The notes under the pieces: model-generated
Database searches by the model: none
What the model saw: only the letters and a program-made list of their open reading frames with translations
Told to the model about the DNA's origin: nothing
Shown here: positions 7,957 to 26,739 of the stretch, one piece after another
Layout of the letters: every line of letters starts with the position of its first letter
Position numbering within the stretch: the stretch's first letter is position 1
Position numbers and translations under genes: made by a program
NCBI GenBank assembly: GCA_947259365.1
Contig: CAMYMC010000015.1
Span: 128,599 to 192,598 of the forward strand
Reading direction: 5' to 3'
Length of the DNA stretch: 64,000 nucleotides
Source: an uncultured Acidimicrobiaceae bacterium
GTDB taxonomy: Bacteria; Actinomycetota; Acidimicrobiia; Spongiisociales; UBA5794

Positions 7957-8820
7957 TCAGACGGCGTCGAGGGCACTCGTGAGCGCCCTGCGCGCGTACA
8001 CCTTGGCGAGATGGGCCTTGTACTCCTCGGACCCGTACAGGTCCTCGAGCACGGTGACCCCTTCCAGCGCGTGCTCGGCTGCGGCGACGACGGCATCGGC
8101 GGACCCGTCCGTCCCGACGATCGCGGCCGCCACGGCGGGGGCCAGCGTCGGCTTCGAGCCGACACCCGTGAGGGCGACACGAGCCTCCGCGACGGTGCCG
8201 TTGGCCTTGCGCACCCAGGCCGCGGCACCCGCCACGGCATAGTCGCTGTGACCTCCCCGCCGGCCGAGCTTGTCGTAGGCGGAGCCCTCGCCGGCCCCCG
8301 CCTTCGGCAGGCGGACCTCGACGAGGATCTCGTCGTCGTTGAGGGCCGACGTCAGCGTGTCGACGAAGAAGTCGGCAGCTGCGATCTCCCTACTCCCACT
8401 CGCCGACCTCGCCACCATCGTCGCCCCGCAGGCGAGCGCGCCCGCCGGCTGGTCGGCGGCGATGTCGGCGTGGGCGAGCGCGCCGCAGGTCGTTCCCCGG
8501 TTGCGCACCTGGGCATCGCCGGTCCACGCCGCCGCCTGAGCGAGCGCCGCTGCGTTCGCCGCCACGAGTGGGTCACTCGCGGTCTGGGCGTGGCGCACGA
8601 GCGCACCCACGGCGATGTGGTCCCCGTCGTCGGAGATGCCGTCGAGGCCGGGAATCCGGCCGATGTCGACGACGAGCTGCGGCGAGAACAGCCGCAGCTT
8701 CATCAACGGGATGAGGCTCATCCCGCCGGACATGACCTTGGCATTCGGGTTGTCGGCGAGCGCCTGAAGCGCTTCGTCGAGCGAGGTGGGGGCTACGTAG
8801 TCGAATTGTCTCGGGAACAT
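7957..8820 (-). CDS. FAD-binding medium subunit, form II CoxL-like hydroxylase
   Basis: A 287-aa subunit of the CoxM/XdhB type. It binds FAD and passes electrons from the Fe-S subunit to an acceptor. The FAD-binding fold shows SGGMSLIPLMKLRL near residue 32 (the AGGxSLxPxMxLR family motif) and GDAQVRNRGTTCGALAHAD (the RNxGTxGG-like loop); a CO-dehydrogenase flavoprotein C-terminal domain follows. The start ATG at 8820 has AGGAG directly upstream, overlapping the large-subunit stop region. It is the last gene of a three-gene operon in small-large-medium order, the order typical of form II clusters rather than genuine CO dehydrogenase. Confidence 0.9.
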   Translation of the reverse strand: MFPRQFDYVAPTSLDEALQALADNPNAKVMSGGMSLIPLMKLRLFSPQLVVDIGRIPGLDGISDDGDHIAVGALVRHAQTASDPLVAANAAALAQAAAWTGDAQVRNRGTTCGALAHADIAADQPAGALACGATMVARSASGSREIAAADFFVDTLTSALNDDEILVEVRLPKAGAGEGSAYDKLGRRGGHSDYAVAGAAAWVRKANGTVAEARVALTGVGSKPTLAPAVAAAIVGTDGSADAVVAAAEHALEGVTVLEDLYGSEEYKAHLAKVYARRALTSALDAV

Positions 8821-8823
8821 CTC

Positions 8824-11202
8824 CTACCCCCTCGCGTCCTGGATCGCCTGCCATACCTTCCTCGGCCGTAACGGCATGTCGATGTGCCGCACCCCCATGG
8901 GGGAGAGCGCGTCGACGACCGCGTTGACCACGGTCTGGGCGGCGCCGATGGTGCCGGCCTCACCGATCCCCTTGACGCCCATCGCGTTGATGTCGGTCGG
9001 GGTCGTGGTGCGGGCCAGCTCGTACGCCGGCAGGTCACCGGCGGTCGGGATCGGATAGTCGACGAGGGACCCGCTCAGCAGGTTGCCCGCTTCGTCGTAG
9101 ATCGCCTCCTCGAACAGCGCCTGTCCGATTCCCTGGGCGAGCCCGCCGTGGATCTGACCATCGACGATCATCGGGTTGATGACGTTTCCGCAGTCGTCCA
9201 TGCAGGCGTAGCGCAGGATCTCGACGTTTCCGGTGTCGGCGTCGACCTCGACCATGGCGAGGTGCGAGCCGAACGGCCACGTCGCGTTGGCCGGGCTGTA
9301 GACGACGTGGGTCTCGAGACCGCCCTCGGTGCCCTCCGGCAGCTTGTGCGGCTGGTAGGCAACCGAGGCGATGTCCGCCCACGGGACCGAGCTGTCGGGC
9401 GATCCGGCGACGTGGGCGGCGCCGTCTGCGAAGACGATGTCCTCCTCACTCGCCTCGAGGAGATGAGCGGCGATCTTCGCCGCCTTCTCCCTCACCCGGG
9501 CTGCCGCCTCGTAGGTCGCCGAGCCGTCAACGGCCGCCGAGCGCGACCCGAACGTCCCGACTCCCATCGGGGATTCGGCGGTGTCACCGTGACGGACCCT
9601 GATGTTCTCGAAGGGGATGCCGAGCTGGTCGCTGACGATCTGAGCCCACGTCGTCTGGTGGCCCTGGCCGGAAGGCCCGGTGCCGATGACGACGGTCGCG
9701 GTCCCGTCCGGGTTGACCCTGACGACACCGGACCCGTTGAACGCCGTAGGCAGCCCGTACGCCGACCACGAGAACCCCAGATCGGCGAGACCCGCCGGTG
9801 CAAACCCGCAGACTTCGACGTAGCTGGCGAGCCCGATACCGACGTTGCGGCCCTCGGCTCGCGCCGCCTCCTGCTCCGCTCTCCACCCCGCGTAGTCGTA
9901 GTGGTCGAGCAGCGCCTGGAGGTTCGTGGCGTAGTCCCCGGTGTCCATGGCGAACCCGAGCGGCGACGTCGCCGCAGGAAACTCGGCGGCAGGAACGAAG
10001 TTCTTCATGCGAACCTCGGCCGGATCCAAGCCGATCTCTCGCGCGTACATGTCGATGATGCGCTCGAGGTAGTAGATCGCCTCGGGGCGACCCGCGCCCC
10101 TGTAGGCATCGGTCGTCGCCGTGTTCGTCGCGACGCAGTCGATCTTCCAGTACGTCGGCATCTTGTATTGACCGGAACCCACGAACAGCCCCAGGAAGGG
10201 GATCGCAACCGTGAAGTTCTGGCTGTACGCGCCCATGTCGGCGAGTCCCTCGAGCTCGTAGCCGACGATCTCACCGTCGCGAGTGCCGACGAGGGTGGCG
10301 GTTGCCACCCAGCCCCGCCCCTGGATCGTCGAATTGCCCGCTTCCCGCCTCGACTCGGTCCACCGCACCGGCGCACCGAGATGGCGCGAAGCGAACGCGA
10401 CGAGGATCTCGTCGTTGTAGACGTTCAGTTTGCAGCCGAAGCCACCGCCGACCTCGGGAGCGACCACGCGGACGCTCGTCGTCGGCAACCCGAACATCGT
10501 CGCCACCGCACCGGCGAGGGCGTGGGGCATCTGGGTCGAGCTCCAGACGTTGAACGAGTTGTACCCGGCGTTGTAGTCCGCGAGCACCGCTCGCGGCTCG
10601 ATGGCCACGGGGATGAGCCGCTGATTCGTCATCTCCTGGGAGACGACGACGACATCGTCCCGCGCCTTGCCGGCGTCGATCCCCGCCTTGACCTCGGCGA
10701 TCTGGTCGGGCTCCATGCCGAAGGGGCCCGCCCAGGACATGAGGACGTTCGACTCGAGGCTGTCGTTGACCTTCACCCGATCGGACGCGGAGTCTTTCAG
10801 AGTGACGACGGCTTCGCGAGGCTCGTACTCGACGACGACCGCATCCGCCGCGTCCTGGGCGACGTAGCGATCGTCGGCGACGACCATCGCCACCGCCTCA
10901 CCGACGTGGTGGACCGCCCCGTCGGCGAGCAGGGGCCGCAACGCTCCGACCGGCACCTGGGCCAAGAGCGGGCCGAGGTCGCGCACGTCGTCGATCGTGT
11001 AGACGGCGCGCACGCCGTCCATGGCCAATGCGGCCGATGCGTCGACGGACGTGATGTCGGCCCTGGCGAAGGGGCTGCGAACGAAGGCGGCGTGCAGTTC
11101 CCCGGGCAGCTTGATGTCGTCGACGTAGGCTCCGGTGCCCTGGATGAGGGCCGGGTCCTCCCTCCTACGGACGATTCCACCGAGGACGCTGGTCGTGCTC
11201 AT
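8824..11202 (-). CDS. Molybdopterin large subunit, form II (CoxL-like)
   Basis: A 792-aa xanthine-dehydrogenase-family catalytic subunit that would carry the molybdenum-cytosine-dinucleotide cofactor. The active-site loop reads AYRGAGR (about residues 366-372), the hallmark of form II CoxL-like enzymes, which lack the AYxCSFR loop with the Cu-ligating Cys of true CO dehydrogenase. The catalytic Glu lies in GIGEAGTIG near the C-terminus, and cofactor-binding loops such as [10 protein letters not shown] are present. The substrate is unknown; oxidation of an aldehyde, purine or N-heterocycle is as likely as CO. ATG at 11202 follows GGAGGTGA and overlaps the small-subunit stop (ATGA); a start five codons upstream is less likely. 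Confidence 0.92.
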
Positions 11203-11699
11203 GCGCTCACCTCCCAATCGGGCGGCGGCGGCTCCTCACCCCGCATCTTCGCCCCGGCGTACTCGACGGCCCGCACGATGTTGTGGTATCCGGTGCAGCG
11301 GCAGAGGTTGCCCTCGAGCCCGTGCCGGATCTCGTCCTCGGACGGATTGCTGTTCGCATCCAGCAGGGCGACGGCCGACATGATCATGCCCGGCGTGCAG
11401 TAGCCGCATTGCAGACCGTGCCGCTCCCAGAACCCTTCCTGGACGGGGTGCAGGTCCCCATTGGAGGCAAGACCTTCGATCGTGGTGATATCGGCGCCGT
11501 CTGCCTGGACGGCGAGCATCGTGCACGATTTCACCGCGGTCCCGTTCACATGCACCGTGCACGCCCCGCAGTAGCCGGTCTCGCATCCGACGTGGGTGCC
11601 CGTCAACCTCAGGCGCTCACGGAGGAGGTGAACGAGGAGGGTGCGGGGCTCGACGTCGGCGGATACCTCCCGTCTGTTGACCTTGAGAGTGATCTCCAT
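11199..11699 (-). CDS. [2Fe-2S] small subunit, form II hydroxylase
   Basis: A 166-aa electron-transfer subunit with two [2Fe-2S] clusters. The plant-ferredoxin-type site has Cys39, Cys44, Cys47 and Cys59, and the helical C-terminal cluster has Cys98, Cys101, Cys133 and Cys135 (QCGYCTPG and [10 protein letters not shown]). Length and cysteine pattern match CoxS/XdhC-type subunits. It is the first gene of the operon and is coupled to the large subunit by ATGA. The 170 bp upstream, toward the divergent azlC, should hold its promoter, but no convincing hexamers were seen. Confidence 0.95.
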
Positions 11700-12929: not shown

Positions 12930-13886
12930 TCAGCGGGCAGCCGTCCCGCCCTCACCCCTCACCCCGGCGAGCACCTCGTCGATGGGCGTCGTCGCCAGGT
13001 CGCCCAGCTCCTGGACGTAGTCGTAGCCGAAGCGGCCCTTGATGCAGAGGTGGCCGGACGTGATGTCGTCGTCCATCGGTGACGTGACCTTCACGATCCG
13101 GTTCTCCTGGACGTGGAGCTCGAGGTTGCAGCCCACCCCGCAATACGAGCACACGGTGCGGGTGACGGACTGGGCGTCCTCGTCCCACAGGCCCGCCGCC
13201 CGCAGCTCGTGCTCGCTGCGGAACATGAGCGCTCCCGTCGGGCAGACGCCGATGCAGTTGCCGCAATAGACGCACGCCGACGCGGTGAGCGCAACGGCGA
13301 ACTCGGTCGAGATCGTCGCATCGAAGCCGCGCCCGGCCACGGTGATGGCGAACGTGTTCTGAGCGTCGACCCCGCACGCATCGACGCACTTGTAACAGAG
13401 GATGCATCGCGAGTAGTCGCGCACGTAGAGATCGTTGTCGACCTTGACATCCTGAGCGACGGTCTCGGCGCGCATCCCGTCGGGCACGGGGTGGTGGCCG
13501 GGGCGGCGGCCGTCCCGCGCCGAGGCTTCGGCCGGTGGCCCGTAGCGGCCGGGATCCGCCGCGTAGTCCTCGAGCCAGGCGTCGACGCCGGCGAGCGACA
13601 GGTCCGTCGAGGACGCGAGGAACTCGAGCACCATGCGCCGGCTGTGGCGAACCCGCTCGGAGTCGGTGGCGACGACCATCCCGTCCTCGGCTTCCCGGGA
13701 GCAGGCAGGCACGAGCGCCCGCGAGCCCTCGAGCTCGACGACGCACACGCGGCACGCATTCGCCGGAGTGAGGTTCTCGGCGTGGCACAGCGTCGGCTGC
13801 TCACGAGCAACGGCGCGGCACGCATCGAGGAGCGACGCCCCCTCGGCGACCTCGACCGCGACCCCGTCGATCGTCAGCGAGATCAC
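12930..13886 (-). CDS. Formate dehydrogenase detached Fe-S half (alpha N-terminal part)
   Basis: A 318-aa protein equivalent to the N-terminal half of NAD-dependent formate dehydrogenase alpha subunits. It carries a [2Fe-2S] domain (Cys34, 45, 48, 62), two ferredoxin-type [4Fe-4S] sites (Cys161/164/167/171 and Cys205/208/211/215) and the cofactor-proximal Molybdop_Fe4S4 domain (Cys246/249/253, Cys281 in HLCIKGRFGYDYV). The protein stops 28 residues after that motif, just where the molybdopterin domain normally begins. That domain is encoded by the first fdh gene of the operon (15693-17585). The His-Cys cluster region of NuoG-like proteins has no matching cysteines. GTG at 13886 follows GGAGG and overlaps the previous stop (GTGA). 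It presumably wires the active site to the NuoEF-like subunit. Confidence 0.88.
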   Translation of the reverse strand: MISLTIDGVAVEVAEGASLLDACRAVAREQPTLCHAENLTPANACRVCVVELEGSRALVPACSREAEDGMVVATDSERVRHSRRMVLEFLASSTDLSLAGVDAWLEDYAADPGRYGPPAEASARDGRRPGHHPVPDGMRAETVAQDVKVDNDLYVRDYSRCILCYKCVDACGVDAQNTFAITVAGRGFDATISTEFAVALTASACVYCGNCIGVCPTGALMFRSEHELRAAGLWDEDAQSVTRTVCSYCGVGCNLELHVQENRIVKVTSPMDDDITSGHLCIKGRFGYDYVQELGDLATTPIDEVLAGVRGEGGTAAR

Positions 13887-15688
13887 GTCGCCTCCACGAG
13901 ACCGAGCGCGACGGCCGACTCGACCGCGCCGGACGCGGTGTGGCCGAGGCCGCAGATCGAAGCGTCGCTCATGACCCGGGAGATGTCCGAGAGGAGCCCG
14001 GCATCGAGAGGCTCGCCGGACGCGAGGTGCCGGGCGAACAGTTCCTCCTGGCGGACCGTCCCCACCCGGCACGGCACGCACTGGCCGCAGCTCTCGTCGC
14101 GGAAGAACGCCGCGATCCGGCGCACGAGATCGCCGAAATCGGCGGCGGCGTCGAAGACCACGACGGCGCCGGATCCCAGCGAGACGCCGCGATCGGCAGC
14201 GGCCTCGAACGAGAGGGGCATGGCGAGCGCATCGGGGCCGACGAAGCTCCCCGCAGCTCCGCCGAGGAGGATCGCCGCCGGCTCTCCCCCATCGCGCGTC
14301 CCTCCCCCGGTCTCGATGAGCTCACCCAGCGTCGTACCGGACGCGACCTCGTACACCCCGCCCCTGGCAACGGCGCCCGACAGGCAGAACAACCGGGTCC
14401 CGGTGGTGCGGTCGGTCCCGGTCGCCGCGAACGCCCGGCCGCCGGACGTGACGATGTCGAGCACGTTGGCGAGGGTCTCGACGTTGTTGACGACGGTCGG
14501 CTTGCCGAACAGGCCGTGGCTCGTCGGAAACGGCGGCTTGTTGCGGGGCTCGCCCCGATGACCCTCGATCGAGTTCATGAGCGCCGTCTCCTCGCCGCAG
14601 ATGTAGGCGCCGGCACCGCGCCGCACGTCGATGTCGAACTCGACCGCAGAGCCGAGGAGCGAAGGCCCGAGAAGCCGGCCGCGGCGGGCCGCCTCGATCG
14701 CACCCACCAACCGGGACGCAGCGAGCGGGTACTCCCCTCGCACGTAGATGTACCCGCGGCGGGCACCGACCGCGAACCCCGCGATCGTGAGTGACTCCAC
14801 CACGGCGAACGGATCCCCCTCCATCAGCACACGGTCTTTGAACGTCCCGGGCTCGGACTCGTCGGCGTTGCAGATGACGTAGCGCTCCCGCTCGTCGGCG
14901 CCGGCGACGGCACGCCACTTCACTGCCGCCGGGAACGCGGCGCCTCCGCGCCCCCGCAGGCCCGACGTCTCGAGTTCGTCGATGATCCGCGCCGACCCGA
15001 GCTCCATCGCCCGCGGCAGCGCCTCGTACCCTCCGTGCGCCCGGTAGGCGTCGAGGCTCGTCGGGTCGGCAACACCCACCCGGCGGAGCAGGCGGAGCGC
15101 AGGGTCTCCGGCCTGGGGCACGGCGGCGCCGAGCAGCGGGCTCGTGTCGCCGGCGAGCACGGCGAGCACATCGGCGACGGTTGCCGCAGAGCGTGCCCGG
15201 TCGTTTTCGCCCGCCAGCTGGAAGAACACGGCCGGCGGCCGGTCGCATCGACCCAAACACGGGCTCGGCATCCAGGAGATACCGCCGCCGTCGGTGCCGG
15301 CCGGGCCCAGCTCGGCCTCGAGCCCGGCAATGAGGTCGGCGGCGCCGAAGCCGCGGCAGGCGACGTCATCGCAGACGTGGGCAACCCGCGGGGGCCTCTC
15401 CTCCACCGAGAGCAGCCCATAGAACGTGGCGACCCCGTATGCATCTGCAGGCGGCACCGAGAGGCGTCGGCAGATGTAGTCGAGCGCCCCTCGTGAGATC
15501 CAGCCGATGCGGTTCTGGGCGGCCTGGAGCGCCGGCAGCAGGAGGTGGCGGCGAGAGCGCGCCTCGCCCCCACCCCGCACGACCCGTAGGCCGGGCCCAC
15601 CGGGCGACCCCTCGGCTGGGCCCACGACGGCGTCGATCGCATCGCGCTCTTCCGGTGACGCCTCCGCATCGAGGAAGCGCAGATCCAT
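13883..15688 (-). CDS. NuoE-NuoF fusion, NADH-reactive formate dehydrogenase subunit
   Basis: A 601-aa diaphorase subunit. Residues about 45-180 form a NuoE-like thioredoxin-fold [2Fe-2S] domain (Cys106, Cys111, Cys144, Cys148). The rest is NuoF-like: an FMN/NAD loop GLRGRGGAAFPAAVKW, a SLBB-type middle domain and the [4Fe-4S] site SCGQCVPCR near the C-terminus. It would take electrons from the Fe-S subunit and reduce NAD+, as in FdsB/HoxF-type enzymes. ATG at 15688 lies 4 nt after the catalytic-gene stop, and its stop overlaps the Fe-S gene start, so all three subunits are coupled. Longer upstream starts invade the catalytic gene and are rejected. Confidence 0.93.
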   Translation of the reverse strand: MDLRFLDAEASPEERDAIDAVVGPAEGSPGGPGLRVVRGGGEARSRRHLLLPALQAAQNRIGWISRGALDYICRRLSVPPADAYGVATFYGLLSVEERPPRVAHVCDDVACRGFGAADLIAGLEAELGPAGTDGGGISWMPSPCLGRCDRPPAVFFQLAGENDRARSAATVADVLAVLAGDTSPLLGAAVPQAGDPALRLLRRVGVADPTSLDAYRAHGGYEALPRAMELGSARIIDELETSGLRGRGGAAFPAAVKWRAVAGADERERYVICNADESEPGTFKDRVLMEGDPFAVVESLTIAGFAVGARRGYIYVRGEYPLAASRLVGAIEAARRGRLLGPSLLGSAVEFDIDVRRGAGAYICGEETALMNSIEGHRGEPRNKPPFPTSHGLFGKPTVVNNVETLANVLDIVTSGGRAFAATGTDRTTGTRLFCLSGAVARGGVYEVASGTTLGELIETGGGTRDGGEPAAILLGGAAGSFVGPDALAMPLSFEAAADRGVSLGSGAVVVFDAAADFGDLVRRIAAFFRDESCGQCVPCRVGTVRQEELFARHLASGEPLDAGLLSDISRVMSDASICGLGHTASGAVESAVALGLVEAT

Positions 15689-15692
15689 CCGG

Positions 15693-17585
15693 TCAGCCCA
15701 CCTTCTCGATCCGCACCGCGGTCGCCTTGAACTCCGCGGTCCCCGACTGCGGATCCCAGGCCTCGATGGTGAGCCGGTTGACATCCGCCTCGTCGGGGAA
15801 GTGCAGCGACATGAACACGAGCCCCGGACGCAAACCCGGGTCGATGCGCACCGGAACCTCGACGGCTCCCCTCCGCGACACGACCCGCACCGTCTCGCCC
15901 TCTGCCACTCCCAGGGCGGTGGCGTCCGCAGGGCCGAGGTCGATCGTCCCCCCGATACGGAGTGGGGACTCGTACCCCCCGCTCTGGACGCCGGTGTTGA
16001 ACGAGTCGAGATACCGCCCCGTCGTCAGGCGGAGGGGGTACTCGTCGTCGAGGGCATCGACGGGGGGCGCGTGCTGGACGGCGGAGAACGGAGCCGGCCG
16101 CCCCTCGGGTGGATCCAGCCACAGGCGGGAGTGGAGGAACTTCTCGCCGGGATGGGTCTCGTCGTAGCAAGGCCACTGGATACCGCCGAGCTCCTCGAGA
16201 CGGGCGTAGCTCATCCCGGCGTGCATCGGGGAGAGACGGCGCAGCTCGTCCCACGCCTCCTGCGCGGTGACCGGGCCCCAGTTGTGGCCCATCTCGGCGG
16301 CGAGGGCGGCGATGACGGACAGGTCGGTTCGCGCTTCACCCGGCGGTTCGAGCGCCTTGCGCACCCGCTGCACCCGGCGCTCGCTCGAGGTGACCGTGCC
16401 CTCCGCCTCGCACCAATCTGCGGCGGCGGGGAGCACGACATCGGCGGTCTCGGCAGTCTTGGTGAGGAAGAGGTCCTGGACGACGAGGAAGTCGAGGTCG
16501 CCGAGCAGGCGGCGCGCCCTGCCGGCGTCCGCCTCCGACTGGGCCGGGTTCTCGCCGATGACGTAGAGCGCGCGGAGCTCGCCCGCTTCCATCGCGTCGA
16601 ACATGGCGGTGAGGTGCTTGCCGGCCTTGCCCGGGATGGTGAAGCCCCACTCGGCCTCGAACTTCCCCCGGGCATCGTCGTCCTCGACATCCTGGAAGCC
16701 GGGAAGCTTGTTCGGCAGCGCCCCCATGTCGCCGCCCCCCTGGACGTTGTTCTGTCCCCGCACCGGCACGAGCCCGGAGCCGTACCTCCCGACGTGACCG
16801 GTCAGCAGCGCGAGGTTGATGAGCGCGAGCACGTTGTCGGTGGCGTTGTGGTGCTCGGTGATGCCGAGCGTCCAGCAGAGTTGCGCCGTCGGCGCCGTCG
16901 CATAGGCGATCGCCAGCTCCTCGATGACGGCACCGGGCACTCCCGTGATCTCCTCCGCCCGCTCCAGCGTGTACGGCTCGACCGCAGCCGCGTACGCGTC
17001 GAAGCCGACCGTCGCCCGGTCGATGAACTCGGCGTTGACGAGTCCGGCATCGATGATGACCCGGCCGGCGGCGTTGGCGAGGGCGATGTCGGTCCCGACG
17101 TCGATGCCGAGCCACACGTCGGCCCACTGCGCCGACTCGCTGCGGCGAGGGTCCACGCAGTACATGCGTGCCCCGTTGTGGATGCCACGCAGCACATGAT
17201 GGAAGAAGATCGGGTGGGCGGCGCGGGCGTTCGAGCCCCACATGACGATGAGATCGGTCGTCTCGATCTCCTCGTAGGAGCTCGTGCCCCCTCCTGCTCC
17301 GAATACCTTCGCCAGACCGGCGACGCTGGGAGCGTGTCAGGTGCGGTTGCAGCTGTCGATGTTGCTCGAGCCCATGACGACCCGAGCGAACTTCTGGGCG
17401 AGGAAGTTCGTCTCGTTCGTCGCCTTGGAGCAGCTGAAGAGCCCGAACGCGGCGCCACCGTGTTCGTCGCGGACTGCCTCCAGGCCCGACGCGGCCCGGC
17501 GCAGCGCCTCGTCCCAGCCGGTGGGCACGAGTTCGCCGTTGCGCCGCACGAGCGGCGTGGCCAGGCGCGTGCGTCTGCGTGACAC
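15693..17585 (-). CDS. fdhA: Selenocysteine formate dehydrogenase catalytic subunit
   Basis: A 630-aa molybdopterin oxidoreductase read through an in-frame UGA (17337-17339, Sec83). The codon falls at the metal-ligand position: SCNRT-Sec-HAPSVAGL, where family members have Sec or Cys followed by the essential His. The frame stays open on both sides, and a hairpin matching a bacterial SECIS follows at once. The C-terminal molybdopterin-dinucleotide domain is present (residues about 510-625). The protein starts RLATPLVRRNGELVPTGW, i.e. after the [4Fe-4S] domain that normally precedes it; that half is a separate downstream gene. GTG at 17585 has a strong AAAGGAGG. It oxidises formate to CO2 and would bind the bis-MGD cofactor. 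Without Sec decoding it would be a broken gene, but conservation after the UGA argues against that. Confidence 0.9.
17296..17339 (-). promoter_or_regulatory. Bacterial SECIS element after UGA codon
   Basis: On the mRNA, UGA is followed 18 nt later by the loop GGUCU (17318-17314), closed by CGCC/GGCG (17322-17319 and 17313-17310). An outer stem GCUCC/GGAGC (17333-17329 and 17300-17296) encloses it. The 18-nt distance and the GGUCU loop are the same as in E. coli fdhF, where SelB binds the loop to deliver Sec-tRNA. Pairing was checked by eye only. Confidence 0.85.
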
Positions 17586-17656
17586 TCATCACCTCCTTTC
17601 GCCGGGTCGTGCGGCCGGAGCCGCTCGACTGGGACCCTAGTTGGGCGCTCGGAGCC

Positions 17657-19417
17657 TCAAGACAGGCCGACGACGTTGCCCGCGGCGTCGACGTCCACGT
17701 TCATGAACGCCGGTCTCGTCCCCAGACCGGGGAGCGTCCGCATGTCGCCGAGCAGCGGGTAGATGAACCCGGCGCCGACCGACGCCCGCACCTCCCGCAC
17801 GGGGAGCGTGTACCCGGTGGGAGCCCCCTTGACCGAGGGGTCGTGGCTGATCGACAGATGCGTCTTCGCCATGCAGATGGGCAGATAGCCGAACCCGGAC
17901 CGTTCGTGGTCCTCGATCTGGCGGGATGCGGTCGCGCTGTACTCGACCCTCGCTGCGCCGTAGACCTGTGTCGCGATCGTCTCGATCTTCTCCTTGATGC
18001 TGCGATCGAGCGGGTAGAGGAACGAGAACTCGGACGGCTCCTCGCACGCTGCCGCCACGGCGGCGGCCAGCTGTTCGGCGCCCTCGCCGCCGCGGGCCCA
18101 GTGGTCGGTGGGGACGGCGTCGTGCGCTCCTGCCTCGAGCCCCGCCTTGCAGACGAGTTCGAGCTCGCGCTGGGAGTCGGTGGCAAAGCGGTTCACCGCC
18201 ACCACGACGGGGACGCCGAAGCGGTGCACGTTGGCGATGTGCGACCTCAGGTTGGCGAGCCCGGCCCGCAGCAACGGCAGGTTCTCCTCGGTGTACACCT
18301 TGTCGAGCGGCCGCCCGGCGACGACCCGGGGCCCACCACCGTGGGTCTTGAGGGCGCGGACGGTGGCGACGAGGACGACGCAGTCGGGCCGCAGACCCGA
18401 CACCCGGCACTTGATGTCGAAGAACTTCTCCATCCCCATGTCGGCGCCGAACCCCGACTCGGTGACGACGAACTCACCGAGGTGGAGGGCGAGGCGGTCG
18501 GCGAGGATCGACGAGTTGCCGTGCGCGATGTTGGCGAACGGTCCGGCGTGGACGAACGCGGCCTGGCCCTCCAGCGTCTGCATGAGCGTCGGGTGGAGGG
18601 TGTCCTTCATGAGCACCGTCACGGCTCCGGCGACGCCGAGGTCCTCGAGGGTGATCGGCAGCCCGTCCTTCGAGAGGCCGATGACGACCCGACCGCAGCG
18701 CTCCCTGAGATTGCGCAGCGCCGAGACGTAGTCGGAGCCGTCGACGAGGGCGAGGATCGCCATGAGCTCGCTGGCGACGGCGATGTCGTACCCCGTCTCG
18801 CGGGGCCGCCCGTCCGCGGCCCCGCCGAGGCCGACGATGACGTTGCGCAGCGCCCGGTCGTTGACGTCGACGACGCGACGCCACGAGATGCGGTTGGCGT
18901 CGATGGCGAGCCGCTCGAGGCCGAGCGCACCGAGCCGGTCGTCGGTGAGACGGGTCTCGTGGTACCACCTCGCGTCGATCGCGGCCGAGACGAGGTTGTG
19001 GGCGACACCGATGGCGTGGATGTCGCCGGTGAGGTGGAGGTTGAACTCGTCCATCGGGATGACCTGGCTGTAGCCCCCACCGGCGGCGCCGCCCTTGATA
19101 CCGAACGTCGGCCCCATGCTCGGCTGCCGGATGCAGGCGATGGCGGTGTGCCCGAGCCGGCCGAGGCCCTGGACGAGGCCGACGCACGTCGTCGTCTTCC
19201 CCTCGCCGAGAGGCGTCGGAGTCACCGCCGTGACGTCGACGTACTTCCCGAAGGGAAGAGCACCGACCCGGCGCAGGGCGTCGAGGTGGACCTTCGCCTT
19301 CGTCGACCCGTACGGGATGAGCTCGCCTTCATCGATCCCGATGGTGGACGCGATGTCGATGACGGGCTTGACGTCCGCCGACTGCGCGATCGCGAGGTCG
19401 CTCGGCATGCTCACCAT
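17657..19417 (-). CDS. fhs: Formate-tetrahydrofolate ligase
   Basis: A 586-aa cytoplasmic enzyme joining formate to tetrahydrofolate with ATP to give 10-formyl-THF for purine, formyl-Met and one-carbon metabolism. The ATP-binding loop [10 protein letters not shown] lies near residue 75, and family motifs [20 protein letters not shown] and HLTGDIHAI follow. Length is slightly over the usual 555-560. ATG at 19417 follows GGAGG with 8-nt spacing; an ATG three codons later is also possible. It is the first gene of a co-directional set: 71 bp downstream begins the selenocysteine formate dehydrogenase, so formate may be partitioned between activation and oxidation. Co-transcription is inferred from spacing. 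Confidence 0.96.
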
Positions 19418-23002: not shown

Positions 23003-25375
23003 TCACTCTGCGTGGTCCCGGATGGCCTGCCACACCCGGTCGGGCAGGACCGGCATGTCGATGTTCCTCACTCCAATGTGCGCCAGGGCGTCGATGACGG
23101 CGTTGACGTACGCCGCCGGTGACCCCACCGTCGCCGATTCGCCCACGCCCTTGGCGCCGATCGGGTGATGCGGCGAGGGCGTGACCGTCTCTCCCAGCTC
23201 GAAGCGCGGCGTCTCCCACGCCGTTGGGACGAGGTAGTCCATGAAGTTCGACCCGATGCAGTTGCCGGCTTCGTCGAAGGTGATCCACTGCATGTTCGAC
23301 ATGGCGAAACCCTCGGCGAGACCACCGTGGATCTGCCCGTCGACGATCATCGGGTTGATGCGAACCCCGCAGTCGTCGACGGCGACCATGCGGCGCACCT
23401 TCCACTCGCCCGTTCCCGAATCGAGGTCGACGACCACGATGTAGCTCCCGAACGGGTACGTCATGTTCGGCGGGTCGTAGTAGTGGACGCCTTCGAGCCC
23501 GGCCTCCATCCCCGGCGGGTGGTTGGTGTACGCGGCGAAGGCGACCTCCTGGATGGTCACCGACGACTCCGGCGAGCCGCGCACGTGGAACGCGCCCACT
23601 TCCCACTCGAGATCCTCCGGGGAGGCCTCGAGGAGATGAGCGGCGATCTCACGCGCCTTCGATCGCAGTTTGCGCGACACCATCGACGTCGCCGCCCCCG
23701 CCGTCGGCGTCGACCGCGACGCGTAGGTGCCGAGCCCGTACGGCGTGTTGTCGGTGTCGCCGTGGACGACCTTGACGTCGGTCGCCGGGATGCCCAGCTC
23801 CTCGGCGACGATCTGGGCGAAGGTCGTTTCGTGGCCCTGGCCCTGCGTCTTGACACCGAGCTTGAGGATGGCCTTCCCGGTCGGGTGGACGCGCAGCTCG
23901 GCAGAGTCGAACATCTTCAGGCCCAAGATGTCGTACTCCCCGGACGGGCCGGCCCCGACCACCTCGGTGAACGAGGCGATGCCGATGCCCATGAGCCGTC
24001 CCTCGGCTCGCGCCCGGGCCTGTTCGGCCCGCAGCTTCTCGTATCCGATCATGTCCATGGCCATGTCGAGCGCCGTCTCGTAGTCACCGGAGTCGTAGAC
24101 GAACCCGGTCGGTGAGTGGTACGGGAACTGATCCGGCTGGATGAAGTTCCTCTTGCGGAACTCGGCCGGGTCCATCCCGAGTTCGTACGCGGCGTTCTGG
24201 ACGAGGCGCTCGATGAGGAACGACGCCTCCGTCACCCGGAACGAGCACCGGTACGCCACGCCCCCGGGGGCCTTGTTCGTGTACACCCCCTTCGTCGTGA
24301 CGTGCGCCGCCGGGTAGTCGTAAGAGCCGGTGACGATGTGAAACAGCCCGGCCCGCGTCTTCGTCGGCTGGGCGTCCGCGTAGAACGCGCCCTGGTCCGA
24401 GACCATGTCCACTCTGAGTCCGAGGATCTTCCCTTCCGCGGTGACGGCGAGCTCGCCCTTCATGTAGTAGTCGCGGGCGAACCCGGTCGAGATGAGGTTC
24501 TCGGTGCGGGTCTCCACCCATTTCACCGGGGCGCCGAGCACGAGCGACGCCGCGGTGGCGACGACGTACCCGGGGTAGACCGGCACCTTGTTCCCGAATC
24601 CGCCGCCGACGTCGGGGGAGATGATCCTGATGTTGTGCTCCGGGAGCCCGGCGACGAGGGCGAAGACGGTCCGGTGGGCATGCGGGGCCTGCGACGTCAT
24701 GTAGATCGTGGCCTGGCCGGTCACCGGGCTCACGTCGGCCACCACACCGCACGTCTCGAGCGGCGATGGGTGCGAGCGCGGATAGTGGGTCTCGATGGTC
24801 ACGACCCGGTCGGCCGTGGCGAACGCCTCGGCGGTGGCGCCGGCATCCCCCGCCTCCCATTCGTAGGCGACGTTGTCGGCCTTGTCCTCGAGGTCGTCCC
24901 TGATGATCGGAGCATCCGGCTCGAGGCCTTGCATCGGGTTGACGATGGCGTCGAGCGGCTCGTAGTCGACCATGACGAGCTCTGCGCCGTCCCTGGCAAC
25001 GTAGGGGTCGGTGGCGATGACCGCCGCCACCTCCTGGCCCTGGAACCGGACCTTGTCGGTGGCAAGCACCGCCTGGGTGTCTCCCGACAGGGTCGGCATC
25101 CACGCCAGGTTGTAGCCGGCGAGCATCTCACCGGTGACGACCGCAACGACGCCGTCGAGGGCCTCGGCCGCCGAGGTGTCGATCGAGTTGATCGTCGCAT
25201 GCGCCAGCGGGCTCCGGACGAGAACCATGTGGAGCATCCGCGGCAGGACGATGTCGTCGAGATAGTTGCCGGCCCCTTGGATGAACCGGTCGTCCTCGAT
25301 ACGGCGGACGTTGTGGCCGATGCCTCCTACCTCGGGCGTGGTGATGGGAGCGTGATGATGCTGTGTCGTCGTCAT
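23003..25375 (-). CDS. coxL: Form I CO dehydrogenase large (catalytic) subunit
   Basis: A 790-aa molybdopterin-cytosine-dinucleotide subunit. The active-site loop VAYRCSFR (Cys377) is the diagnostic AYxCSFR motif of form I CoxL, where the Cys holds the Cu of the Mo-S-Cu site (Cys388 in Oligotropha). The catalytic Glu lies in GVGESATVGSP near the C-terminus, and the cofactor loop DVGGGFGNKV is present. The reaction is CO + H2O to CO2 + 2 e- + 2 H+, with electrons going to the respiratory chain. Gene order coxM-coxS-coxL on the minus strand is the canonical form I order. ATG at 25375 lies 13 nt after the coxS stop. This is the strongest evidence in the window for aerobic CO oxidation. Confidence 0.97.
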   Translation of the reverse strand: MTTTQHHHAPITTPEVGGIGHNVRRIEDDRFIQGAGNYLDDIVLPRMLHMVLVRSPLAHATINSIDTSAAEALDGVVAVVTGEMLAGYNLAWMPTLSGDTQAVLATDKVRFQGQEVAAVIATDPYVARDGAELVMVDYEPLDAIVNPMQGLEPDAPIIRDDLEDKADNVAYEWEAGDAGATAEAFATADRVVTIETHYPRSHPSPLETCGVVADVSPVTGQATIYMTSQAPHAHRTVFALVAGLPEHNIRIISPDVGGGFGNKVPVYPGYVVATAASLVLGAPVKWVETRTENLISTGFARDYYMKGELAVTAEGKILGLRVDMVSDQGAFYADAQPTKTRAGLFHIVTGSYDYPAAHVTTKGVYTNKAPGGVAYRCSFRVTEASFLIERLVQNAAYELGMDPAEFRKRNFIQPDQFPYHSPTGFVYDSGDYETALDMAMDMIGYEKLRAEQARARAEGRLMGIGIASFTEVVGAGPSGEYDILGLKMFDSAELRVHPTGKAILKLGVKTQGQGHETTFAQIVAEELGIPATDVKVVHGDTDNTPYGLGTYASRSTPTAGAATSMVSRKLRSKAREIAAHLLEASPEDLEWEVGAFHVRGSPESSVTIQEVAFAAYTNHPPGMEAGLEGVHYYDPPNMTYPFGSYIVVVDLDSGTGEWKVRRMVAVDDCGVRINPMIVDGQIHGGLAEGFAMSNMQWITFDEAGNCIGSNFMDYLVPTAWETPRFELGETVTPSPHHPIGAKGVGESATVGSPAAYVNAVIDALAHIGVRNIDMPVLPDRVWQAIRDHAE

Positions 25376-25388
25376 GTGGATCGTCCCT

Positions 25389-25859
25389 TCAGCTCGAGGC
25401 CGCGACGGTCTCGGCCGCGAGCCGGATCGCCTTGACGATGTTGATGTAGCCCGTGCAGCGGCACAGGTTCCCCGATATCGCCCACCGGATGTCGTCCTCG
25501 GACGGGTCGGGGTTCTCCTCGATGAGCACCGAGCCCACGAGCATCATCGCCGGGGTGCAGTAGCCGCACTGGAGACCGTGCGCCTCTTTGAAGGCAGCCT
25601 GGATGGGGTGCAGGTCGCCGTTCTGCTTGAGCCCCTCGACGGTCTTCACGGCGCGACCGTCGGCCTGGACGGCGAAGAGCGTGCACGACTTGACCGGGGT
25701 GCCGTCGAGGAGGACGGTGCACACCCCACAGCTCGTCGTGTCGCACCCGATGTGAGTTCCGGTCAGGCCGAGGCGGGTACGGAGGACGTCGACGAGCAGC
25801 ATCCGGGGCTCGACGTCGACGGTGTTGTCGGTGCCGTTGACGGAAATGGTGATCTCCAT
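25389..25859 (-). CDS. coxS: CO dehydrogenase [2Fe-2S] small subunit
   Basis: A 156-aa subunit with two [2Fe-2S] clusters: Cys39/44/47/59 (GCDTTSCGVCTV) and Cys98/101/133/135 ([18 protein letters not shown]). It links the Mo-Cu site of CoxL to FAD in CoxM. ATG at 25859 follows GGAGGGACC; the gene starts 10 nt after the coxM TAG stop and ends 13 nt before coxL. The cysteine positions are identical to those of the form II small subunit at 11199-11699, so the two are clear paralogues. Confidence 0.95.
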   Translation of the reverse strand: MEITISVNGTDNTVDVEPRMLLVDVLRTRLGLTGTHIGCDTTSCGVCTVLLDGTPVKSCTLFAVQADGRAVKTVEGLKQNGDLHPIQAAFKEAHGLQCGYCTPAMMLVGSVLIEENPDPSEDDIRWAISGNLCRCTGYINIVKAIRLAAETVAASS

Positions 25860-25869
25860 GGTCCCTCCC

Positions 25870-26739
25870 CTAGCCCTGGGCCGCCGCCAGCGAGGCGGTG
25901 AGGCCGCGTTCGGTGAACACCCGGACGACATCCCGCTTGTACTCCGCCGAGCCCCGGACGTCCGACGTCGGGTCGCATGCCGCTGCGGCGATACGCGCCG
26001 CCTCAGCGAAGAGCTCGACCGACGGTGCGTTGCCGACGAGGGCCTGCTCCGCGTCGGTCACCTTGAGGTTGTGGGCGTACACCGACGTGAGGGCGATGCC
26101 GGCGTTCGAGATCGAGCCGGCGTCGTCGAGCTCGAGATGGGTGGCAACGCCGACGGTCGCGTAGTCGCCGATCTTGCGCTCGAGCTTCTGATAGTTGCCG
26201 CCGCCCCGGCGGTACCGGGGGACGCGCACCTCGGTCACGAGCTCCGTCGGCTGCAACGACGTCGTGAACATGTCGACGAGGAACCCCGCGATCGGGATCA
26301 CGCGCTCGCCGCCGTCGCGGCTCTCGGCGACGACCTCGGCGTCACAGGCGAGCATGACCGACGCCCAGTCGCCCTCGGGGTCGTGGTGCGCCACCGAGCC
26401 GCACAGCGTGCCGAGGTTGCGCACGAGCGGGTCGGCGATCCACGGCGCCGCCGACGCCATCGCATCGTTCTCGGCGGCGACGACGTCGGAGCGCACGACG
26501 TCGGAGTGGCGGGCGAGGGCCTGGACCCGGAGATGACCGTTCTGGATGTCGATCGAGTCGAGGCCGCTGAGACGGTTGATGTCGACGAGCGTGCCGGGGC
26601 TGGCGAAGCGCAGCTTCATCATCGGGATGAGGCTCTGGCCGCCGGCGAGGACCTTCACCTCCCCACCGCGCTCGGCGAGGATGTCGAGGACCTCTTGTTT
26701 CGTCTCCGGGGCCACATAGTCGAAGGCTCTGGGGTACAT
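25870..26739 (-). CDS. coxM: CO dehydrogenase FAD-binding medium subunit
   Basis: A 289-aa flavoprotein subunit. It starts MYPRAFDYVAPETKQEVLD and has the FAD loops AGGQSLIPMMKLRFA (from residue 32) and RNLGTLCGSVAHHDPEGDW; the last residues of the latter (HHDPEGD) fit form I CoxM. ATG at 26739 follows GGGAGGTGG. It is the first of the coxMSL set. The 121-bp gap to phoU upstream contains inverted repeats but no clear promoter hexamers, so the set may be read from further upstream. Confidence 0.95.
   Translation of the reverse strand: MYPRAFDYVAPETKQEVLDILAERGGEVKVLAGGQSLIPMMKLRFASPGTLVDINRLSGLDSIDIQNGHLRVQALARHSDVVRSDVVAAENDAMASAAPWIADPLVRNLGTLCGSVAHHDPEGDWASVMLACDAEVVAESRDGGERVIPIAGFLVDMFTTSLQPTELVTEVRVPRYRRGGGNYQKLERKIGDYATVGVATHLELDDAGSISNAGIALTSVYAHNLKVTDAEQALVGNAPSVELFAEAARIAAAACDPTSDVRGSAEYKRDVVRVFTERGLTASLAAAQG

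Follow-up and report, generated by a model that had tools for sequence, protein, structure and literature searches.

A split selenocysteine-containing formate dehydrogenase predicted in Acidimicrobiia, with a proximal iron-sulfur domain encoded by a separate gene

Introduction

Two selenoproteins are the most widespread in bacteria, and the selenocysteine-containing FdhA is one of them; the use of selenocysteine in actinobacteria has been published (PMC1794560, PMC5029168). Work from 2025 describes the proximal iron-sulfur cluster as ubiquitous in Mo-dependent formate dehydrogenases and assigns it to their catalytic subunit (PMC12176258). The locus considered here lies in a 64,000-nucleotide stretch of the genome of an uncultured Acidimicrobiaceae bacterium (hereinafter the window) and raises a question on both counts: its gene for a formate dehydrogenase catalytic core, fdhC (15693..17585, minus strand), contains an in-frame UGA and codes for a protein that begins only beyond the position of the Fe4S4 domain. 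Is this UGA read as selenocysteine, and which polypeptide holds the proximal cluster? Our analysis indicates that the gene cluster very probably specifies a cytoplasmic, NAD(P)-linked selenocysteine formate dehydrogenase of split layout, with selenocysteine inserted by way of a GGUCU stem-loop and the proximal cluster borne by a distinct protein, FdhN.

A catalytic subunit divided between two genes

The predicted FdhC protein of 630 amino acids, with selenocysteine at residue 83 (U83), runs from a GTG start at 17585 to a TGA stop at 15693, and an AGGAGG ribosome-binding site can be recognized by its sequence at 17592..17597 of the same strand. An earlier note on this DNA, made from the sequence alone, had taken this reading frame for the catalytic gene of a formate dehydrogenase. 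This holds for the selenocysteine-bearing core, but the gene as a whole is an incomplete FdhA, the Fe4S4 domain being encoded in fdhN. FdhC displays only the PF00384 and PF01568 domains, with the Fe4S4 domain absent, and aligns with the TIGR01591 model only at its positions 50-672 (638 bits); positions 1-57 of the same model are matched by the C-terminus of FdhN (53 bits). The fdhN gene (12930..13886, minus strand) codes for a 2Fe-2S and two 4Fe-4S ferredoxin clusters followed by the C-terminal Fe4S4 domain, and matches PF13510, the Fer4 families and PF04879, the molybdopterin-oxidoreductase Fe4S4 domain. Between fdhC and fdhN lies nuoEF (13883..15688, minus strand), a fusion of a NuoE-like [2Fe-2S] protein to a NuoF-like FMN/NAD(H)-binding diaphorase (PF01257, PF01512, SLBB and PF10589; 416 bits with TIGR01959), whose stop codon overlaps the GTG start of fdhN in the tetranucleotide GTGA.

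On the FdsA-type alpha subunit of the structure 9wxb, residues 2-293 of FdhN align with 25-305 and residues 4-626 of FdhC with 305-931; on the FdsA of Rhodobacter capsulatus (6tg9), the corresponding segments are 25-305 for FdhN and 323-931 for FdhC. Judged by these alignments, FdhC and FdhN together are one FdsA-type alpha subunit. The NAD-dependent formate dehydrogenases of the FdsABG type (those of R. capsulatus, R. aestuarii and Methylorubrum, the last being FDH1) have the same set of parts as the split enzyme: a NuoE-like and a NuoF-like component, a NuoG-like Fe-S arm, the Fe4S4 domain and the catalytic core. The two differ in how these parts are arranged and equipped. FdsA is a single polypeptide, in which the Fe-S arm precedes the core, whereas the split enzyme has a separate core gene that is placed first. 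Moreover, in the split enzyme NuoE and NuoF are fused, selenocysteine occupies the site where Cys is usual, and the His-Cys3 cluster motif of the NuoG and FdsA arms was not found in FdhN, so the electron path would differ in detail from that of NuoG and FdsA. E. coli FdhF, which shares a homologous catalytic fold with FdhC (38% identity), has its own N-terminal Fe4S4 domain and no diaphorase, whereas FdhC is without this domain and is accompanied by a diaphorase gene.

This layout recurs well beyond the window. In 62 loci the sequence continues for 3.1 kb or more downstream, and in 60 of them fdhC, nuoEF and fdhN follow one another in this order on one strand. When 80 fdhC genes were examined for an in-frame Fe4S4 motif ahead of the core, where contiguous control formate dehydrogenases carry this domain in one frame with it, no gene had one. 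Hence, the layout is no assembly accident. In the locus L114, nuoEF and fdhN adjoin fdhC on the opposite strand, and in L118 fdhC and nuoEF were found, with no fdhN within the 17.9 kb locus. Across 21 FdhN sequences, the cysteines of the 2Fe-2S cluster, the two ferredoxin 4Fe-4S clusters and the Fe4S4 cluster are invariant.

The linkage of the genes and the complementarity of their domains suggest that FdhC and FdhN associate physically, and FdhC, NuoEF and FdhN are predicted to assemble into an active complex. The main alternative is that FdhC uses the cluster of another partner, or has none in a proximal position, with the Fe4S4 domain of FdhN serving a different enzyme or a structural, NuoG-like role. 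This view draws on the similarity of FdhN to NuoG, which has the same domain and does not oxidize formate, and on the fact that the FdhC-FdhN complex is itself deduced. We nevertheless consider it unlikely, as fdhC and fdhN are linked in those 60 of 62 loci, as the electron-transfer genes of L114 remain beside fdhC even when inverted, and as the Fe4S4 domain retains its four Cys and the Lys of its CxKG motif (K283) in 21 of 21 FdhN sequences. With the proximal cluster assigned to FdhN, these loci would probably represent a widespread class of metal-dependent formate dehydrogenases, in which one polypeptide carries the selenocysteine/Mo(W) site and another the neighboring [4Fe-4S] cluster, including its conserved Lys. 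If this is true, the first electron step in this class crosses a subunit interface. Such a division would allow the selenocysteine/Mo core and the proximal cluster to be handled as separately expressed, mixable proteins, and would thereby make the role of the cluster in formate/CO2 catalysis directly testable.

Neither a split formate dehydrogenase nor a proximal cluster provided in trans was found in the literature searched, which lay mostly outside subscription journals, and priority is uncertain. A Pelobacter genome paper goes no further than to mention an Fe-S protein that resembles a noncatalytic portion of a formate dehydrogenase, beside a fused diaphorase.

Enzyme identity and the proposed electron path

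Could FdhC be a different molybdopterin oxidoreductase, for instance a nitrate reductase? Its 638 bits with TIGR01591 fall slightly below the cut-off of that model (666), and the NasC and NasA models also match it, with 402 and 380 bits. Against this, the Fdh-alpha model is the best by far, and the 53 bits that fall to FdhN raise the sum to about 691, above the cut-off. The AlphaFold model of FdhC (pLDDT 78.8) matches formate dehydrogenase structures over its full length: in Foldseek comparisons the TM-scores by query length are 0.83-0.89 for the eight best matches and 0.87-0.88 for the formate dehydrogenases 1fdi, 6tg9 and 7vw6; the corresponding model of FdhN is poor (pLDDT 56.7). With formate dehydrogenases ranking first by both sequence and fold, a U-H ligand, an fdhD gene in the host genome (on contig C21, above its curated cut-off) and the gene fhs adjoining fdhC, an enzyme other than a formate dehydrogenase appears improbable.

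For this formate dehydrogenase we propose the following sequence of events. SelB with Sec-tRNA would decode the UGA at codon 83 by recognizing the GGUCU stem-loop 18 nt downstream and, going by what is known of the family, Sec83 would ligate the Mo or W of a bis-pterin cofactor held by FdhC. Electrons from formate would then pass to the [4Fe-4S] cluster in the C-terminal domain of FdhN, on a separate polypeptide, and from there via the ferredoxin clusters of FdhN and the FMN of NuoEF to NAD(P). The most likely direction is formate oxidation or a balance with tetrahydrofolate one-carbon metabolism. A tie to the latter is suggested by fhs (17657..19408, minus strand; PF01268, 813 bits), which encodes formate-tetrahydrofolate ligase directly upstream of fdhC; the Fhs protein itself starts near residue 116 of a longer ORF. 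Of the 59 loci with room for it, 13 have fhs no more than 3.5 kb upstream, so that fhs accompanies the split enzyme only occasionally and is not a fixed partner.

Predicted decoding of the in-frame UGA

The UGA of codon 83 (17337..17339, minus strand) lies in the motif SCNRT-U-HAPSVAGL and is directly followed by a His codon, as is the UGA that encodes the selenocysteine of E. coli FdhF. Its assignment by the earlier note to the site that formate dehydrogenases fill with selenocysteine or Cys before His agrees with the alignment: the U83-H84 ligand pair is invariant, with Cys as the counterpart of U83 in four homologues (L158-L161) and selenocysteine elsewhere. A GGUCU apical loop (17314..17318, minus strand) begins 18 nt after the UGA. 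As already pointed out in that note, this spacing is identical to that in E. coli K-12 fdhF. The two strands of the window together contain 1214 TGA triplets, of which only this one has a GGTCT at such a distance. Covariation and folding delimit a bSECIS upper stem-loop (17309..17323, minus strand), with the 23-nt segment forming five pairs that close the loop at -7.6 kcal/mol. The stem of the E. coli fdhF SECIS carries a bulged U, whereas the five pairs of the fdhC stem are continuous and without it.

It could be argued that this hairpin is a by-product of the conserved SVAGL peptide and that the UGA is decoded without its help: the loop encodes a conserved Gly-Leu, the folding energy of the single sequence is unexceptional (z -0.9, and z +0.4 in a 41-nt context), and the Rfam SECIS models match neither the hairpin nor any other part of the window, whereas E. 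coli fdhF does match SECIS_2/3. As folding energy and Rfam give no proof, we turned to comparative evidence. In all 117 distinct TGA-bearing homologue sequences the loop Gly is written GGT and the Leu after it CTG, whereas at the 32 other conserved Gly columns of the same sequences all four codons are mixed. In the four Cys-containing split homologues the SVAGL peptide is unchanged, but this Gly is written GGG or GGA, and GGT occurs in 0 of 4. Thus, the same peptide keeps GGT with selenocysteine and loses it with Cys, which amounts to a near-ideal natural experiment. The stem pairs are retained in 99-100% of 115 sequences and undergo compensatory exchanges, from C-G to G-C between nt 15 and 27 (104:11) and from G-C to A-U between nt 16 and 26 (seven sequences). 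At the level of codons, Val+5 and Ala+9 covary synonymously: 104 sequences combine GTC with a GCG-type codon and 11 combine GTG with GCC, with no mixed combination, and in seven sequences a Thr ACC pairs with a Val GTG. The Fisher value (1.4e-15) is not a probability, the sequences being related; what counts is that pairing is preserved at each change. A mere by-product of the peptide is therefore very improbable, and we regard the SECIS element of fdhC as established by sequence comparison. Accordingly, the hairpin put forward in the earlier note stands on synonymous codon constraint, on compensatory exchanges and on the disappearance of its loop from the Cys-containing homologues, and not on its energy or on Rfam.

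That the UGA is a true stop, arising from a sequencing error or the decay of a pseudogene and leaving the gene in two fragments, of which automatic ORF calling indeed yields only the downstream one (15693-17243), has next to no chance of being right, since the same TGA is kept in 110 of 110 loci of the first set inspected, which cover a wide range of assemblies and phyla and preserve an unbroken frame at 67-78% identity, since synonymous constraint is limited to the loop codons and since the host genome carries the selenocysteine machinery. This conservation across loci rules out a sequencing error, including a misread TGC or TGT, as well as a pseudogene; the frame, open in the window on both sides of the TGA (17339-17337), is conserved as the earlier note had claimed. 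Hence, on sequence grounds a selenocysteine reading of the in-frame UGA of fdhC is almost certain, and fdhC is a well-supported addition to the known selenoproteins.

Selenocysteine machinery of the host

The selenocysteine system that such a reading presupposes is encoded in the same genome, a draft of 50 contigs that is 94% complete. A tRNA-Sec with a UCA anticodon (RF01852, 72.9 bits against a gathering threshold of 47; tRNA-SeC (tca) in ARAGORN) is matched at C41:77748-77838 and at C37:5-95. The ends of these two contigs overlap, so the two matches are one gene; the contigs are probably adjacent, with selC some 25 kb from selD. On contig C31, selA (TIGR00474, 420 bits; cut-off 268) and selB (TIGR00475, 321 bits; cut-off 242) are neighbors with about 24 nt between them. 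The selD gene (C37:25583-26506; TIGR00476, 391 bits, above the curated cut-off) has an in-frame TGA of its own at HGAG-U-ACK, presumably the usual Sec/Cys active site of selenophosphate synthetase, which makes selD a selenoprotein gene too.

The earlier note had expected this system and was right in that; it had further called such systems patchy in actinobacteria. In the host order selA is present in 114 of the 138 genomes, which makes selenocysteine use less remarkable here than the note implied. A relative of the FdhC protein occurs in 100 of these 138 genomes. Among the listed genomes that are at least 90% complete and carry the split TGA-bearing gene, selA is absent in only two (G033 and G098). 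A selA homologue in another genome (G055:C24:10358-11668) contains one in-frame TGA. In the literature searched, no paper treats Acidimicrobiia, selenocysteine and formate dehydrogenase together, and three that mention both selenocysteine and Acidimicrobiia or related names appeared, from their titles and abstracts, to concern other matters.

Distribution and ancestry of the split enzyme

Matches to the split formate dehydrogenase come from metagenome-assembled genomes labelled Actinomycetota (Acidimicrobiia and Nitriliruptorales), Chloroflexota, Acidobacteriota, Myxococcota and Eremiobacterota, of which labels single cases may be binning errors. In a plasmid collection, all homologues were under 60% identity. 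In the tree of the catalytic cores, the 47 split cores form one clade (100/100), which implies that the split arose once, and their sister group consists of short contiguous selenocysteine FdhAs from another Actinomycetota family (100/99). The Cys-containing split cores (L158-L161; g107 in f37) are nested inside the selenocysteine clade, and thus selenocysteine was replaced by Cys there. They have the same succession of fdhC, nuoEF and fdhN at 64-66% identity, but with Cys (TGC/TGT) and no GGTCT in place of the selenocysteine and GGTCT of fdhC in the window; their hosts are actinomycetes with large genomes (6-10 Mb), probably Streptomyces. The tree of the Fe4S4 domain, with 56 columns, does not discriminate between fission and a chimeric origin. 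The split enzyme may have arisen when an FdsA-type electron-transfer arm was joined to a short core resembling FDH-H.

The short contiguous FdhAs of the family f30 (L162-L165, L183 and L184) likewise have selenocysteine, and all four loci inspected show the GGTCT loop; unlike in the split FdhC, their Fe4S4 domain is fused in front, and no diaphorase genes were found alongside. Further contiguous selenocysteine FdhAs with open frames of about 900-1100 amino acids are present within the order and phylum of the host (L172, L173, L175 and others), and the one from the same family (L172) is also without the His-Cys3 cluster motif. In one Actinomycetota family, two FdhA homologues (G332:C48 and G321:C6) carry TAA or TAG in frame, either in place of TGA or in addition to it.

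Annotation pipelines can miss the split enzyme twice, once at the UGA and again at the missing N-terminus. Given these two pitfalls, formate metabolism in Acidimicrobiia and their relatives may be under-reported.

Other genes in the window

The window further codes for a form I aerobic CO dehydrogenase, with the large subunit at 23003-25375 (minus strand; AYRCSFR motif; TIGR02416, 1219 bits against a cut-off of 991), and beside it a small Fe-S subunit at 25389-25931 and a likely medium FAD subunit at 25870-26739. By its gene content, the host may oxidize CO as well as formate. A second CO dehydrogenase-like operon extends over 7957-11699 (minus strand), and its large subunit (8824-11217) has the AYRGAGR motif of the form II type and scores below the CO dehydrogenase cut-off.
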